Of a stretch of DNA of 64,000 bases, positions 34,158 to 40,014 are shown in pieces. Below the pieces are notes generated by a model. The model did not search any database. It was not told where the DNA came from and was given only the letters and a program-made list of their open reading frames with translations. The number at the start of each line of letters is the position of its first letter. The stretch's first letter is position 1. The DNA is from Fermentimonas sp. (lineage in GTDB: Bacteria > Bacteroidota > Bacteroidia > Bacteroidales > Dysgonomonadaceae): NCBI GenBank assembly GCA_015478775.1, contig JADMKP010000007.1, positions 558,001 to 622,000 on the forward strand, written 5' to 3'. A program made the translations under genes and the position numbers.

Positions 34158-34931
34158 CTATTCAATATTTTTTCTTACATCAGTAAGGAAGTTTTTCATA
34201 CCCTCAGAATCCTTCTTGTCGATAATCTCTATTAACTCCTTTAACTTTTTACGTATCTGCTCTACCTGCTGAGTTGTATATGGGTTAAACAGAATCTCAG
34301 TCAACAGGAAGTCATCCTCCGACAAAAGTCCCTGCGCAATATTCATATGTCTTTTAAATGTTGTTCCAGGTGCATCCTGATGCTTCATAACAGAAGCAAA
34401 TACAAGAGTTGAGGCGAAAGGAATTGACAAAGAATATGCTATAGTTTCGTCATGCTCCCTGAAGGAATACTCAAAAACATTAAGCTTCAAACCATTATAT
34501 AGATCTCTAAAAAACACCTTGCCCAAATGAGAAGATTCTGAAATAATTATTGCGCTCTGTGTGCTTAAATCGCTAAGACTGGCAAATGTGGGACCAAACA
34601 TTGGGTGAGTAGACACAAATGGCTGCTTGCATTCTTTATAAAACTCTTCCAGGCCTGTTTTTACAGATGCAATATCACTTAATATACAGGTTGAAGGCAG
34701 ATATTCTAGTACATTTTTAAATGCTGCAATTGTATACTTAAGAGTTGCAGCATTGATAACCAATTCAGGGGCAAACTCTTTAACCTCAGCAGGATTGGTC
34801 ATCCTTTGCGTATTGTATATAAAACGCATTTTCTTAGGCTCTGTATCCAATACTGCCACTTCATGATCAAAGCTTAGTACATCGGCAAAGAAGGATCCCA
34901 TTTTGCCGGCTCCCAATATCAAAATCTTCAT
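34158..34931 (-). CDS. tyrA: Prephenate dehydrogenase
   Basis: Oxidatively decarboxylates prephenate to 4-hydroxyphenylpyruvate, the tyrosine branch. The NAD(P)-binding motif ILGAGKMGSFFADVL is at residues 4-18, and STHPMFGPTF, a conserved active-site segment, is near residue 96. The 257 residues lack an ACT domain, so feedback by tyrosine would have to act elsewhere. It is the last gene of the leader-controlled operon pheA-aminotransferase-DAHP synthase/chorismate mutase-tyrA and ends three bases from the converging cyclophilin gene. Confidence 0.92.
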   Translation of the reverse strand: MKILILGAGKMGSFFADVLSFDHEVAVLDTEPKKMRFIYNTQRMTNPAEVKEFAPELVINAATLKYTIAAFKNVLEYLPSTCILSDIASVKTGLEEFYKECKQPFVSTHPMFGPTFASLSDLSTQSAIIISESSHLGKVFFRDLYNGLKLNVFEYSFREHDETIAYSLSIPFASTLVFASVMKHQDAPGTTFKRHMNIAQGLLSEDDFLLTEILFNPYTTQQVEQIRKKLKELIEIIDKKDSEGMKNFLTDVRKNIE

Positions 34932-34951: not shown

Positions 34952-36052
34952 TTAAAGTGAAGTTCCATCATTCTGAAGCGATTGTTTTTTCTCCCGATCC
35001 ATAATCACCATTTGCTGGCGAACAGACTCAGAGTGAATTGCTTCTAAAACCTGCTTTACAAAGTTACCCGACATCTCCATTCTCTCTCCCTGATAAGCCC
35101 TGTCAGTTAGAATCTCGTCATACCTTTTTGTTTGCAAGATAGGCATATCATGCTCTAGTTTATAATAACCAATCTCGCGTGATACTCGCATACGCTTTGC
35201 CAGTAGTTGCAATAGGTCGTTATCCAAATCATCAATCTGATTACGTAGTACCGATAAATCTTCGGTGGTTTGGATTGTATCTCTAATTATTAAATTATTA
35301 AGAACTTCTTTAAGTTGTGCAGGGGTAATCTGCTGATCTTTATCGCTCCATGCTTCATCAGGTGAACAGTGCGTTTCAACAATTAATCCTGTATAATTCA
35401 AATCCATGGCTTGTTGACTCAATTTATGAATCATAGTGCGGCTACCACCAATATGGCTTGGGTCGCATATAATTGGAAGATTAGGGAAACGTCGCTTCAA
35501 CTCTATAGGTATATGCCATTGGGGTAAATTTCGGTAAATTGTTTTGTCGGTTGTGCTAAACCCTCTATGTATAACCCCCAGTTTTTTTACACCTGCGTTG
35601 TAAAGTCTTTCCAAAGCCCCTATCCATAGTTCCAGGTCGGGATTAACAGGATTCTTTATTAAGATAGGAATATCAACTCCCCTAAGCGTATCTGCAATCT
35701 CCTGCACTGCAAATGGGTTGGCCGCTGTTCTGGCTCCTATCCAAAGCATGTCGATACCATATTTTAGAGCTTCATATACATGCTTTTCAGTTGCAACCTC
35801 AGTAGACATATACATACCTGTTTCTTTCTCAGCCTCCATCATCCATTTCAATGCAGGACTTCCAACACCTTCAAAACCACCCGGTTTTGTTCTTGGCTTC
35901 CATACTCCAGCTCTAAAAATTTTAACACCTGTGGCGGCTACCTCTCTTGCGGTATTCATAACCTGTTCCTCAGTCTCGGCACTGCATGGACCAGCTATTA
36001 CAAGTGGTCTTTTAGCATCTATTCCTGGTAGTAATATCGATTCGAATTCCAT
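34952..36052 (-). CDS. Bifunctional 3-deoxy-7-phosphoheptulonate synthase / chorismate mutase
   Basis: Catalyses the entry step of the shikimate pathway and the step from chorismate to prephenate. Residues 1-260 are a DAHP synthase of the short (KDO8P-synthase-like) type, with GPCSAETEEQV near residue 21, GVWKPRTKPGGFEG near residue 49, and CDPSHIGGS near residue 195. Residues 270-360 are an AroQ-type chorismate mutase with LRNQIDDLDNDLLQLLAKRM. The fusion is typical of Bacteroidetes; in such enzymes the mutase domain can mediate prephenate inhibition. It lies 20 bases ahead of tyrA. Confidence 0.95.
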   Translation of the reverse strand: MEFESILLPGIDAKRPLVIAGPCSAETEEQVMNTAREVAATGVKIFRAGVWKPRTKPGGFEGVGSPALKWMMEAEKETGMYMSTEVATEKHVYEALKYGIDMLWIGARTAANPFAVQEIADTLRGVDIPILIKNPVNPDLELWIGALERLYNAGVKKLGVIHRGFSTTDKTIYRNLPQWHIPIELKRRFPNLPIICDPSHIGGSRTMIHKLSQQAMDLNYTGLIVETHCSPDEAWSDKDQQITPAQLKEVLNNLIIRDTIQTTEDLSVLRNQIDDLDNDLLQLLAKRMRVSREIGYYKLEHDMPILQTKRYDEILTDRAYQGERMEMSGNFVKQVLEAIHSESVRQQMVIMDREKKQSLQNDGTSL

Positions 36053-36056
36053 ATTT

Positions 36057-37223
36057 TTAAATATTTGTTATATATTTCTTAATTCTTTTGTGTGCTTCTT
36101 GCAGTTTATCTGCCGATGAACCCAATGATATACGTACAAAACCCTCACCATTACTTCCAAATATAAATCCAGGCGTAATAAAAACTTTAGCATTGTACAG
36201 TATATCATTAATAAAGTCATCACTGCCCTTAGCACCTTCGGGTAGTTTACCCCAAACAAACAGTCCGGTTTGAGACTTATCATACCTACAGTTTAGCAAA
36301 TCCATAATTTTCTCTGCCCAAACCCGGCGTTCTGCATAAATAATATTCATATTGTCATGCCACTCTTCGGAGTTATTAAGAGCGGTAATTGTAGCTAATT
36401 GCATGGGTTTAAACTGACCGCTGTCTATATTACTTTTTGCTTTTAATACCCATCTTACAAACTGTGGGTTTGAAATTAAAACACCCATACGCCAGCCCGA
36501 CATATTATGTGATTTACTTAACGAGTTTAGCTCTATGCATATTTCTTTTGCTCCCGGTACAGACATAATACTCATTGGGTTATCGTTTAATATAAAGCTG
36601 TATGGGTTATCGTGACAGATTACAATATCATGCTTTTTCCCAAATGCTACCAATCTCTCAAATAACTCATAGCTTGCATTGGCTCCTGTGGGCATATTAG
36701 GATAATTAACCCACATCAGTTTCACCCCCGACAGATCAAGTTTCTCTAGGGCATCAAAATCGGGATACCAATTATTGTCTTCAACCAAATCATATTCAAT
36801 TACATTGGCCCTCAACAAATTCGAAACTGATTTGTATGTTGGATATCCAGGGTTTGGAACAAGTACCCCATCTCCAATATTCAAAAATGTCATAGAAATA
36901 TGTAGAATTCCCTCCTTTGACCCAATTAATGGCAACACCTCCGTTGAATCGAGTTCTACATTATAAAATCTTTTGTACCATTCACTATAAGCTTTTCTCA
37001 ACTCTGGAATACCTGTATAGGGTTGATACGCGTGCACATCGGGGCGTTTTGCTGTTTCGCATAGAGCTTCAATTGTTTCATCTGATGGCATACGGTCGGG
37101 TGCTCCAACTGCTAGACTGATAACATCTTTACCCTCTGCATTCATTTGTGCAACCTCTGCAAGTTTAACAGAGAAGTAATACTCAGATATTGTTTTTATA
37201 TGTTCTGCAGGCTCAATATTCAT
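36057..37223 (-). CDS. Class I/II aminotransferase of the aromatic amino acid operon
   Basis: A PLP enzyme of 388 residues. The cofactor lysine lies in LNSLSKSHNMSGWRMG near residue 235, and substrate carboxylate would be held by the C-terminal Arg in GFVRISLG near residue 368. The N-terminal ISLAVGAPDRMPS and NPGYPTYKSV are fold-type I hallmarks. The ATG giving MNIEPAEHI was chosen over a TTG seven codons upstream. Its position between pheA and DAHP synthase implies that it aminates phenylpyruvate and 4-hydroxyphenylpyruvate, though an aspartate or diaminopimelate role cannot be excluded. Confidence 0.88.
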   Translation of the reverse strand: MNIEPAEHIKTISEYYFSVKLAEVAQMNAEGKDVISLAVGAPDRMPSDETIEALCETAKRPDVHAYQPYTGIPELRKAYSEWYKRFYNVELDSTEVLPLIGSKEGILHISMTFLNIGDGVLVPNPGYPTYKSVSNLLRANVIEYDLVEDNNWYPDFDALEKLDLSGVKLMWVNYPNMPTGANASYELFERLVAFGKKHDIVICHDNPYSFILNDNPMSIMSVPGAKEICIELNSLSKSHNMSGWRMGVLISNPQFVRWVLKAKSNIDSGQFKPMQLATITALNNSEEWHDNMNIIYAERRVWAEKIMDLLNCRYDKSQTGLFVWGKLPEGAKGSDDFINDILYNAKVFITPGFIFGSNGEGFVRISLGSSADKLQEAHKRIKKYITNI

Positions 37224-37246
37224 AATGCTTATATACTTATTCAAAA

Positions 37247-38101
37247 TTATTCTTGTATATCTTTTTTGTGTTTCTCTTCTCTATATTCCCCTAATATTTT
37301 CAGATCGCTTACCAAAGGTATGATGGCATCAATAGACTGCTTATAACGATTATAATCTTCAAATATTAGATCTATGTAAAATTGATACTCCCACTCTCTT
37401 CCAATTATGGGCAGTGATTGAATTCGTGTGAGGTTAACATCATAAAAAGACAAAACAGATAGTACTTGCGACAAACTGCCTTCTTTATGTGGCAATACAA
37501 ACACAAGGCTAGATTTATTTATATGGTTATCTTTTTGTACATATTTGAGCATATTATCTTGTGCAAGTATCAGGAAACGAGTGAAATTTCTTTTATTTGT
37601 TTCAATTCCTTCTGCAAGAATCTCTAAACCATACATTTCTGCTGCAAGTGCACTGCATATTGCTGCTGAACCATGCATCTCTTTATCACTTATATCTTTA
37701 GCAGCCAATGCAGTATCCTCATGCTCCACAATCTTTACACCTGGCAAAGTATCTATAAAGTCCTCACATTGCATAAGTGCCATTGGGTGTGACATAACTT
37801 CTTTAATATCACTCAATTTACTGCCTGGTAGTGCGGCCAATGTATGTGAAATACGGAGTTTATGCTCTCCTGCGATCTGCAGATCATGCAGCTTAAGCAG
37901 ATCATGATTAGGCAAAAGTCCACCTGCAATAGTATTTTCAATAGCCATAACAGCTATTAACCTTGGATCTTTAACCGCTTCTTCAAAAATATTGCGAAAG
38001 GTATTGCATGGCACAATCTCCAACTCTTCATCTTTAAAATATTCACGTGCTGCTTGCTCGTGATATGCACCCGGACCTCCCTGAATGGCTACTCTTTTCA
38101 T
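37247..38101 (-). CDS. pheA: Prephenate dehydratase
   Basis: Converts prephenate to phenylpyruvate. The catalytic domain opens with VAIQGGPGAYHEQAA and contains AIENTIAGGLL near residue 59 and NFTRFLIL near residue 177, the TRF catalytic motif. A C-terminal ACT domain starts near residue 200 with SSLVFVLPHKEGSLSQVL. The usual phenylalanine-binding ESRP is replaced by QSLP in LTRIQSLPI, so inhibition by Phe may differ. The ATG giving MKRVAIQ is the likely start; the in-frame TTG 24 bases upstream lies in the U-tract of the attenuator. First structural gene after the leader peptide. Confidence 0.95.
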   Translation of the reverse strand: MKRVAIQGGPGAYHEQAAREYFKDEELEIVPCNTFRNIFEEAVKDPRLIAVMAIENTIAGGLLPNHDLLKLHDLQIAGEHKLRISHTLAALPGSKLSDIKEVMSHPMALMQCEDFIDTLPGVKIVEHEDTALAAKDISDKEMHGSAAICSALAAEMYGLEILAEGIETNKRNFTRFLILAQDNMLKYVQKDNHINKSSLVFVLPHKEGSLSQVLSVLSFYDVNLTRIQSLPIIGREWEYQFYIDLIFEDYNRYKQSIDAIIPLVSDLKILGEYREEKHKKDIQE

Positions 38102-38123: not shown

Positions 38124-38154
38124 AAAAAAAAATCCTGTCGTTGGATCGACAGGA
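38124..38154 (-). terminator. Attenuator terminator (3:4 hairpin) in the pheA leader
   Basis: On the minus strand TCCTGTCG (38154-38147), loop ATCCAA, CGACAGGA (38140-38133), then nine T. The perfect 8-bp stem with a U9 tail lies 22 bases ahead of the pheA ATG, so it is placed to stop transcription before the operon. Confidence 0.92.
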
Positions 38155-38208
38155 CTTTATTTTATTTTGATATGTTATATCTTTTTGTTTTGCATATAAA
38201 ATCCTGTC
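38148..38208 (-). promoter_or_regulatory. Antiterminator (2:3 pairing) of the pheA leader
   Basis: GACAGGATTTTAT (38208-38196), beginning one base after the leader-peptide stop, can pair with ATAAAGTCCTGTC (38160-38148). This gives 13 bp with one G-U wobble. The second arm contains most of the 5' arm of the terminator, so the two hairpins exclude each other. A ribosome at the leader stop codon would cover the first arm. Confidence 0.88.
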
Positions 38209-38209
38209 T

Positions 38210-38266
38210 TTACCTATTAAAGTAAAAGTAAAAACCGAAATATGATGCAAAAACTGAATTGTTCAT
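38210..38266 (-). CDS. Phe/Tyr-rich leader peptide of the pheA operon
   Basis: An 18-codon reading frame, ATG to TAA, encoding MNNSVFASYFGFYFYFNR. Five Phe and three Tyr codons fall between codons 6 and 16, with FYFYF in a row at codons 12-16. It begins about 23 bases after the predicted transcription start and ends one base before the antiterminator arm. Shortage of charged tRNA-Phe or tRNA-Tyr would stall a ribosome on these codons, free the antiterminator and allow transcription into pheA. The composition, position and paired RNA structures are seen directly; the regulatory mechanism is inferred by analogy with pheL and trpL leaders. Confidence 0.88.
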   Translation of the reverse strand: MNNSVFASYFGFYFYFNR

Positions 38267-38294
38267 TTGTAAAATCTTTTTGAAATTATGAATG

Positions 38295-38324
38295 CAAATG
38301 TAATACTTTTTTTATAAAAACAAA
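38295..38324 (-). promoter_or_regulatory. Promoter of the pheA leader and operon
   Basis: TACATTTG (38302-38295 on the minus strand) matches TAnnTTTG, with TTTG (38324-38321) 18 bases upstream as the -33 element. Transcription would start near 38289, about 23 bases before the leader-peptide ATG. Confidence 0.6.
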
Positions 38325-38426
38325 CAATTTGCACGAAAAAACAGATAATTCAAAAGTTCTCAGAAAAATGTACAACCATATTCTGCTTTTATAAAATGGG
38401 ACTGTAAAAATTTATAAAATTGTTAT

Positions 38427-38484: not shown

Positions 38485-40014
38485 ATGTTCAAAAATCATC
38501 CAAAAGGTTTGCTCGCTGCTTCGCTTGCAAACATGGGAGAAAGATTTGGTTTTTATACCATGATGGCTATTCTCTCGCTGTTTATAATGACAAAATTTGG
38601 CCTAGATGAAACCCAAACCGGAATCATCTACTCAATCTTTTACGCATCAATATATTTGCTTGCACTTGTTGGTGGATTATTAGCCGACAAAACCCGTAAC
38701 TATAAAGGTGTTATTATGACTGGTTTGGTATTAATGGCAGTGGGTTATGTTATCATTGCTATTCCAACACCAACACCTATTCCTGCCGACAAGTATGGCT
38801 TAATGCTTGCATTAACTTGCTTTGGCCTGCTTGTAATAGCACTTGGCAACGGATTGTTTAAAGGTAACTTGCAAGCGTTAGTAGGACAGATGTACGATAA
38901 CCCGAAGTATAGCAAAATGCGCGACTCGGGGTTCCAGTTGTTCTACATGTTCATCAACGTAGGTGCAATTTTTGCTCCATTTCTAGCAATGGGAATCAGA
39001 AACTGGTGGGTTGAGAAAAATGGTTTTGAATATATTGCCGACTTACCCGACCTTATACACCAATTTCTTGGCAACACAATTACTGCCGATGGAACTGCCA
39101 GACTTCAGCAATTGGCTTCTGACGCTGGACAAACAGACCTGACTACTTTTGCAAATGAATACCTCAATGTATTTACAACTGGCTTCCACTATGCTTTTGG
39201 GGCTGCTATCGTAGCTATGTTGATATCATTGGTTGTCTATATGGTAAACAAAAACAAATTTCCTGATCCTGCCAATAAAAAAGTTGCTTCAGAAAATGGA
39301 GAGCCTGTAGTTGAAATGGATATTAAAGAAATTAAACAGAGACTTTATGCACTATTTGCTGTATTTGCAGTGGTTATTTTCTTCTGGTTCTCTTTCCACC
39401 AAAACGGACTAACACTTACATACTTTGCAAAAGACTACACCGATCTGAGCCAGATAAAAGTAAATCTTGGTTTCTCTACACTTCAAGGTGTTGAAATATT
39501 CCAATCGATTAATCCTTTCTTTGTAGTATTCCTAACCCCCATCATTGTTGGTTTCTTTGGCTGGTTAAGAGCTAAAGGAAAAGAACCATCCACACCCCGA
39601 AAGATAGCTATTGGTATGGGTATAGCTGCATTTGCATATGCTGTAATGGCACTTGGCTCAATGGGATTACCTTTAAAGGCTGAAGTGGACTCAATGGGCG
39701 GACTAACAAATGCTGCACGTGTAACACCATGGCTTCTTATTGTCACATACTTTATACTAACTGTTGCTGAATTATTTATCAGCCCACTCGGAATTTCATT
39801 TGTATCAAAAGTTGCCCCTCCCAAATATCAGGGAATTATGCAGGGAGCATGGCTAGGAGCAACAGCAGTTGGTAACAGTTTACTATTTATTGGTGCTATT
39901 TTCTATACCACTTTCTCAATGTCGGCAACTTGGATGGTATTCGTAGTTGCTTGTCTCATCTCCATGATTACAATGCTGGCGATGGTGAAATGGCTAGATA
40001 GAATTGCGAAATAG
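38485..40014 (+). CDS. POT/PTR family proton-coupled peptide transporter
   Basis: A major-facilitator-superfamily symporter of 509 residues that imports di- and tripeptides with protons. The N-terminal ANMGERFGFYTMMAILSLFI carries the ERF-x-x-Y-type motif of the family. There are about 12-14 membrane helices, with a central cytoplasmic region around residues 255-285. The conserved G-N-G-L-F-K segment lies near residue 129. It is flanked by its own -7 box and a strong terminator, so it is monocistronic. Being divergent from the Phe/Tyr operon may be coincidental, although peptide import is another source of aromatic amino acids. Confidence 0.92.
   Translation: MFKNHPKGLLAASLANMGERFGFYTMMAILSLFIMTKFGLDETQTGIIYSIFYASIYLLALVGGLLADKTRNYKGVIMTGLVLMAVGYVIIAIPTPTPIPADKYGLMLALTCFGLLVIALGNGLFKGNLQALVGQMYDNPKYSKMRDSGFQLFYMFINVGAIFAPFLAMGIRNWWVEKNGFEYIADLPDLIHQFLGNTITADGTARLQQLASDAGQTDLTTFANEYLNVFTTGFHYAFGAAIVAMLISLVVYMVNKNKFPDPANKKVASENGEPVVEMDIKEIKQRLYALFAVFAVVIFFWFSFHQNGLTLTYFAKDYTDLSQIKVNLGFSTLQGVEIFQSINPFFVVFLTPIIVGFFGWLRAKGKEPSTPRKIAIGMGIAAFAYAVMALGSMGLPLKAEVDSMGGLTNAARVTPWLLIVTYFILTVAELFISPLGISFVSKVAPPKYQGIMQGAWLGATAVGNSLLFIGAIFYTTFSMSATWMVFVVACLISMITMLAMVKWLDRIAK

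Follow-up and report, generated by a model that had tools for sequence, protein, structure and literature searches.

The described systems closest to the element studied here are leader-peptide attenuators of amino acid operons, for which the structural details of the pheL-pheA attenuator serve as general background. In E. coli and other gamma-proteobacteria, a leader peptide precedes the prephenate dehydratase gene and control is exerted through charged tRNA-Phe, as stated in the portion of PMC11802643 available to us. The same portion describes the AroR leader ahead of aroF in C. glutamicum, where ribosome stalling raises transcription of the DAHP synthase operon; likened to our case by description, it has in common a leader with Phe-Tyr-Phe and a DAHP synthase operon, and it differs in being actinobacterial and in responding to Phe only. 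The available parts of two further studies report that no conserved element was found in the Phe or Tyr operons of Actinobacteria (PMC1262725) and that a candidate uORF with Phe codons lies ahead of aroF in Acholeplasma (PMC8632094).

In Bacteroidetes, the Bacteroid-trp RNA (RF01692), listed in the accessible text of PMC2864571, is also a leader-peptide element, but it carries Trp codons, belongs to another operon, and its model has no match at the pheA leader. It has been reported that in Flavobacterium psychrophilum structured 5' elements without Rfam hits lie upstream of pheA and hisG, that they also occur in other Flavobacteriaceae, and that the amino acid operons of this species give 'strong clues' for leader-peptide attenuation (PMC9723704, partial text). 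Its pheA element coincides with ours in the phylum, the gene, the lack of an Rfam hit and the proposal of attenuation; likened here by description, the two are likely the same element. The earlier note on this DNA had regarded leader-peptide attenuation in Bacteroidetes as known mainly from Bacteroid-trp, which these pheA and hisG elements contradict, and had suggested that the element may be undescribed: it indeed has no Rfam family, but a structured pheA 5' element was already present in PMC9723704. Leader-peptide-like sORFs have been found in B. thetaiotaomicron, and the word 'phenylalanine' is absent from the main text of PMC7366714 as far as it was available.

The element lies in the window, that is, the whole stretch of 64,000 nucleotides of Fermentimonas sp. 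DNA analysed here, which comes from a genome assembly of 2.9 Mb in 13 contigs. Its pheA leader matches no family of Rfam 15 (4227 models, amino acid leaders and T-box included), either between positions 37000 and 40000 at E-values up to 1 or at the gathering score over the whole window, and the Rfam search on 12 relatives gave two matches, neither of which falls on the pheA leader by position. Lopatovskaya et al. (2010) is reportedly a comparative study of amino acid operon attenuation in bacteria, and it may already contain a prediction of the pheA element. In the literature searched, available partly in excerpt and with this 2010 survey outside it, no description of a Bacteroidales pheA leader peptide or of its structure was found. 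Compared by description with pheL-pheA, the window leader alternates Phe and Tyr codons, precedes a four-gene operon of both branches, has no Rfam match, and gives only faint signs of a hairpin between segments 1 and 2 (1:2 hairpin).

Anatomy of the pheA leader

All the parts of the leader are on the minus strand of the window, where the promoter-like boxes through the pheA ATG span positions 38324 to 38101. A TTTG at 38321..38324, which we take to be the -33-like element of a Bacteroidetes-type promoter, precedes a -7-like TAnnTTTG box (TACATTTG, 38295..38302) that ends 28 nt upstream of the leader ATG, and not 23 as the earlier note had it. The leader peptide ORF (MNNSVFASYFGFYFYFNR, 38210..38266, stop included) comprises 18 codons, of which eight are aromatic (5 Phe and 3 Tyr), and contains an aromatic control block encoding Phe-Tyr-Phe-Tyr-Phe (TTTTACTTTTACTTT, 38219..38233). 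One nucleotide separates its stop from segment 2, the 5' arm of the antiterminator (GACAGGATTTTAT, 38196..38208), which can pair with segment 3, the 3' arm (ATAAAGTCCTGTC, 38148..38160), in a duplex of 13 pairs with one G-U. Segment 3 in turn overlaps the 5' arm of the intrinsic terminator hairpin formed by segments 3 and 4 (38133..38154), a perfect stem of 8 bp that is followed by a run of nine U (38124..38132) ending 22 nt before the pheA ATG (38101). Apart from the promoter distance, the coordinates computed by script agree with the earlier reading of this region, namely the frame with eight Phe/Tyr codons (38266-38210), the 13-bp pairing one base past its stop (38208-38196 with 38160-38148), and the overlap of the pairing partner with the perfect hairpin.

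Among the 22 terminator-like sites on both strands of the window, only that of the pheA leader is preceded by a competitor duplex of -12 kcal/mol or lower. Its fold is also more stable than expected: with the 5' end assumed at 38288, the 165-nt leader reaches -35.4 kcal/mol, compared with -17.2 +/- 3.0 in 200 shuffles (z -6.0).

Downstream of the leader, on the same strand, Pfam profiles support the operon order pheA-aminotransferase-DAHPS/CM-tyrA that had been proposed, tyrA only as a prephenate dehydrogenase-like gene. The first gene (37247..38101) is a monofunctional prephenate dehydratase (PF00800, E 6.9e-57; under the NCBIfam cut-offs), and the second (36057..37244) a class I/II aminotransferase (PF00155, E 1.3e-54) whose NCBIfam matches are under the cut-off and to which no predicted substrate is assigned. 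These are followed by a DAHP synthase fused to a chorismate mutase (34952..36052, PF00793 and PF01817) and by the tyrA-like prephenate dehydrogenase (34158..34931, PF02153, E 5.3e-7, 29.7 bits with a cut-off of 26.5; under the NCBIfam cut-off). A gene for a POT-family transporter, identified by a profile match, is divergent from the pheA operon (38485-40014).

Conservation and covariation among relatives

A scan of genome contigs confirmed 182 pheA relatives, from which we used the best 80, all with Bacteroidota-type names. With the parts anchored by motif, 77 of these best 80 contribute a set of their own, comprising leader block, segments 2 and 3, and a hairpin followed by its U-run, the other three being a truncated locus (L061), a repeat of L098 (L102) and one without an attenuator (L090). 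The anchor for segment 2 was placed 4-10 nt too early in about a dozen loci, and the ranges were trimmed by hand for alignment A2. With loops limited to 10 or the distance to 160 nt, a hairpin search found none in L082, L090, L100, L106, L110, L111 and L112, and picked a wrong hairpin in L057. A detector requiring a terminator, a competing duplex and at least 5 aromatic codons in 8 is positive for 69 of the 78 loci with enough upstream sequence and for 0 of 780 dinucleotide shuffles; it reports five more sites in 743,173 bases of contigs (both strands), all with exactly 5 aromatic codons in 8, one of which (L099, minus strand) is the opposite strand of a pheA leader. Eight of the nine missed loci (L089, L091, L095, L100, L103, L107, L109 and L111) show leader and hairpin by eye; the ninth, L090, does not.

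The Phe/Tyr richness of the short frame is conserved in these relatives. The codon block ranks among the most invariant parts of alignment A2, which holds the window and all 77 loci: its last five control codons read FYFYF in 67 of the 78 sequences, and its final codon, the closest to segment 2, is Phe in 77 of them, with the blocks of L104 and L105 containing Phe and no Tyr. Many relatives that retain Tyr codons in their leaders gave no tblastn match (E 1e-8) for tyrA near pheA, and an association between the absence of tyrA and the absence of Tyr codons was looked for among the relatives and not seen. Further upstream, TAnnTTTG occurs within 110 nt ahead of the aligned leader block in 75 of 77 relatives, compared with 213 of 1540 shuffles, and 63 of the 75 box-bearing relatives have a TTG 16-21 nt upstream of the box.

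The earlier note had proposed covariation of both stems in relatives as a check, and both stems do covary. In A2, 86.0% of the 1075 antiterminator cells are paired, and 71 are double-change cells, compared with 21.9 in shuffles (0 of 500 as high) and 48 in the best slid register. The terminator is the best-paired part, with 98.7% of 702 cells paired and 99 double-change cells, compared with 23.6 in shuffles (0 of 500 as high) and 16 in the best slid register. Cells paired, double-change cells and covariation score are above all 500 shuffles for both stems, shuffles that ignore kinship. The number of pairs with a double change is not above the shuffles (108 of 500 as high for the antiterminator, 77 of 500 for the terminator), and for further pair types 36 of 500 shuffles are as high in the antiterminator and 3 of 500 in the terminator. 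The picture is the same in alignment A1, a hand-picked set of 51 rows that omitted near-duplicates and divergent rows such as L098, L104, L105, L109 and L111, all of which are restored in A2. Segments 2, 3 and 4 change jointly: the window has GACAGGA/TCCTGTC/GACAGGA, a Paludibacter (L076) has GAGCAGGA/TCCTGCTC/GAGCAGGA, and others, for example L080, have GCGGGA/TCCCGC/GCGGGA. The stretch linking segments 2 and 3 varies in length and shows poor conservation.

The trp attenuator has a 1:2 pause hairpin, described in the available part of PMC1183508. An initial view that the pheA leader lacks a segment 1 was dropped: the MFE fold of the whole leader has a 1:2-type hairpin (38202..38239, minus strand) in which the aromatic codons pair with bases around the stop, just before segment 2 and at its start. 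A TTTAC..GTRRR motif occurs in 58 of 77 loci, and the end of the leader is more stable than its synonymous recodings (mean -7.15 vs -6.15 kcal/mol; more stable in 56 of 77). Pairing of the upstream leader with the core of segment 2 is barely above shuffles over the 77 loci (mean -5.58 vs -5.28 kcal/mol), and a pair count with badly placed columns (50.5% paired; 94.9% when slid by +2) gave no covariation for this hairpin. A weak and unproven 1:2 hairpin is possible in these folding models; it may act as a pause or default-termination hairpin, and it may be one reason for the extreme codon choice of the block, where the 78 sequences have 144 TAC to 12 TAT and 226 TTT to 6 TTC. The Tyr preference is the opposite in the long ORFs of the window (195 TAC to 563 TAT; 684 TTT to 210 TTC), and those of the named loci have 2847 TAC to 4041 TAT and 5080 TTT to 3923 TTC. 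As a separate observation, made with no control, 50 of the 51 A1 sequences have a pyrimidine-G step, often in TATG, 9-13 nt past the first G of the segment-2 core. This step is reminiscent of an RNA polymerase pause signal, and the polymerase might pause past segment 2.

Codon spacing, proposed mechanism and alternatives

The control codons stand at a near-fixed distance from segment 2. In A2, the core GG of segment 2 sits 13-14 nt past the last five control codons in 64 of 78 sequences. The stop is 18-48 nt past the block, rather than 6-9, in 12 sequences, and of these, 11 have 13-17 nt and one has 18 nt between block and GG. With the segment starts of the detector, which scans for aromatic codons only 4-25 nt ahead of the duplex, so that this distance is bounded by design and the position of the stop is not, 61 of the 70 named loci have 10-13 nt (sd 1.6) between the end of the last aromatic codon and segment 2. 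In a wider set of loci, presented below, the corresponding distance is 10-11 nt in 18 of 30, and the stop precedes segment 2 in 60 of the 70 named loci but in 1 of the 30 wider ones. Past the codon being translated, a bacterial ribosome reportedly covers about 12 nt of downstream RNA (PMC4833913, partial text).

We folded the nascent RNA with 12 nt covered past the start of the A-site codon. In this model, the window leader keeps all 13 antiterminator pairs with the A site on Tyr9, Phe12, Tyr15 or Phe16, and none with the A site on Asn17, Arg18 or the stop. The relatives behave less sharply: with the ribosome on the last aromatic codon, at least 5 antiterminator pairs are present in 57 of the 70 named loci and 25 of the 30 wider ones, still in 32 of 70 and 15 of 30 one codon later, and in 3 of 70 and 6 of 30 three codons later. 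When the full-length RNA is folded, the terminator conformer is favoured at 6 of the 7 modelled ribosome positions, Phe12 being the exception; therefore, the switch must be kinetic, and readthrough depends on the antiterminator forming first.

These observations fit the attenuation reading of the earlier note, which is backed by the conserved Phe/Tyr richness, the covarying stems and the near-fixed spacing, and on sequence grounds we consider it very probable (about 0.9) that the pheA-aminotransferase-DAHPS/CM-tyrA operon is controlled by a ribosome-mediated transcription attenuator. We infer that the ORF is translated, that termination and readthrough take place in vivo, and that both respond to Phe and to Tyr. 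While RNA polymerase transcribes the leader, a ribosome would follow it along the 18-codon ORF. With ample charged tRNA-Phe and tRNA-Tyr, the ribosome would clear the Phe-Tyr-Phe-Tyr-Phe block and mask segment 2, segments 3 and 4 would pair, and transcription would stop ahead of pheA. If either tRNA is scarce, the ribosome would stall at an aromatic codon, roughly a footprint short of segment 2, leaving that segment free to pair with segment 3 before segment 4 has been synthesized; transcription would then continue into the operon. Dual sensing of Phe and Tyr would fit the geometry of the leader in the folding model.

The attenuator could also be real and sense Phe only, with the Tyr codons as tolerated passengers, as in C. 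glutamicum AroR, whose Phe-Tyr-Phe leader, according to a review, answers to Phe but not to Tyr (PMC11802643, available portion). The almost invariant final Phe codon and the Tyr-free blocks of L104 and L105 speak for such sensing, but the block is FYFYF in most of the sequences, stalling at Tyr9 or Tyr15 does not mask segment 2 in the folding model, and the operon carries genes of both branches; we regard Phe-only sensing as rather unlikely, at a level that still deserves attention.

Much lower is the probability that we give to the two explanations in which the peptide plays no part. A constitutive terminator, which would yield a small RNA or limit basal transcription with an incidental ORF, agrees with a terminator stem that is the best-paired part of the element and is favoured at equilibrium, and it is hard to reconcile with the co-changes of segments 2 and 3, with a codon block among the most invariant parts of the alignment, and with the recurrence in the class of an F/Y frame at a narrow distance from segment 2, for which reasons we hold it to be very improbable. 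A metabolite riboswitch or a T-box driving the 2:3 / 3:4 switch without translation is, in our estimation, slightly less probable still: mutually exclusive stems, taken by themselves, are compatible with it, but Rfam has no match at the pheA leader at E up to 1, and the poor conservation and variable length of the linker between segments 2 and 3 leave little room for a conserved ligand pocket.

Spread of the element and other leaders in the genome

A covariance model built from A1 matches 89 of 101 family genomes at E 0.001, many of the matched genomes being the model's own sources, where matches occur by construction. For 89 of its 94 matches, pheA follows on the same strand, and for 88 of these it lies no more than 130 nt away (median 22). 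Element and pheA occur together in 87 genomes, pheA alone in one (G042), and the element alone in two, one of which (G017) has its match 48 nt from a contig end. In the other (G085; L186, G085:C87), where pheA was not found in the genome, leader and terminator were observed directly ahead of the aminotransferase gene. Three more matches without pheA are weak (E 1.5e-5 to 7.4e-4; G053, G071 and G074). The match in G053 (L181 330-530, G053:C250; E 1.5e-5) has a leader MNNLSFTYGFYYFYPKDKSRVNL ahead of a GNAT acetyltransferase gene instead of pheA, that in G071 precedes a trpB-like gene as read by eye, and the gene context in G074 is unexplained. In L184 (G079:C1), the attenuator and pheA are 1918 nt apart, and the 464-aa ORF between them, read by eye, resembles a group II intron reverse transcriptase. 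In a Prevotellaceae contig, the immediate upstream neighbour of the pheA leader is a Bacteroid-trp RNA (52.6 bits) in opposite orientation (L108 4607-4724, minus strand).

In a sample of the phylum, pheA is present in 172 of 198 genomes. For the wider set, we used the starts of 40 of the 44 genomes with a pheA match in other families of the class, with 37 readable, and of 20 of 127 genomes outside the class, mostly best-scoring, with 11 readable. An F/Y frame (at least 5 in 8) is present in 34 of the 37 class loci and in 4 of the 11 outside, and the full detector fires at 28 of 37 and 2 of 11, respectively. At the cut of at least 5, this F/Y scan, which is looser than the detector, also scores 140 of 740 shuffled sequences and 7 of the 37 reverse strands; therefore, only the cut of at least 6 is telling, which 25 of 37 loci reach, compared with 29 of 740 shuffled sequences and 3 of the 37 reverse strands. 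The three class loci without a leader belong to one genus group (f9/g30). Segment 2 varies widely in the class (AGGATTG, GGGACTG, GAGGCTTTG, CCGGGTAGTGT), and each variant complements its own segment 3. In L118, a Flavo-1 RNA lies about 400 nt further upstream of the pheA leader, which points to Flavobacteriaceae for its group f5. As a tentative generalization, to which we give somewhat less than an even chance, the element may be an ancient Phe-OR-Tyr attenuator of Bacteroidota that follows a one-footprint rule, in which the last aromatic codon stands at a near-constant spacing (about 10-13 nt) from the antiterminator arm, with a stop free to lie before, inside or beyond the arm and no obligatory 1:2 hairpin.

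Other candidate amino acid leaders were observed in the same genome. Upstream of hisG (G000:C8; L189, reverse complement of about 1105-1230) there is a His-rich ORF (MKANRFHHHHFHTCIQAS) with a terminator and a competing duplex of -8.6 kcal/mol, and ahead of a gene that looks leuA-like when its translated start is read by eye, an Ile/Leu/Val-rich frame (DILVISILLL) with a terminator (G000:C8:441099-441232, plus strand; L175, about 1480-1640) and a weak competing duplex of -6.2 kcal/mol; neither the his nor the leu leader has an Rfam match at E up to 0.5. Upstream of trpB (L194 286-420, plus strand), a Bacteroid-trp (RF01692) match of 45.0 bits, below the cut-off of 49, accompanies a leader with Trp-Trp (MMNILTNGYWWRYLQHIKS). 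A search for a thr leader in the 2 kb that surround the start of the thrA-like gene gave no terminator. Taken together, the pheA leader and those of his, leu and trp suggest that attenuation may be a common mode of amino acid control in this genome.

The pheA leader is a defined and widely recurring regulator of aromatic amino acid synthesis without an Rfam family, in a phylum that is important in the gut and in anaerobic digestion. Bacteroidota mostly initiate translation without Shine-Dalgarno pairing, and to our knowledge it is unsettled how closely their ribosomes follow RNA polymerase. A one-footprint attenuator, if it works, would imply tight coupling of transcription and translation in Bacteroidota, and the pheA leader would be a natural reporter of whether their ribosomes track RNA polymerase closely enough for attenuation.
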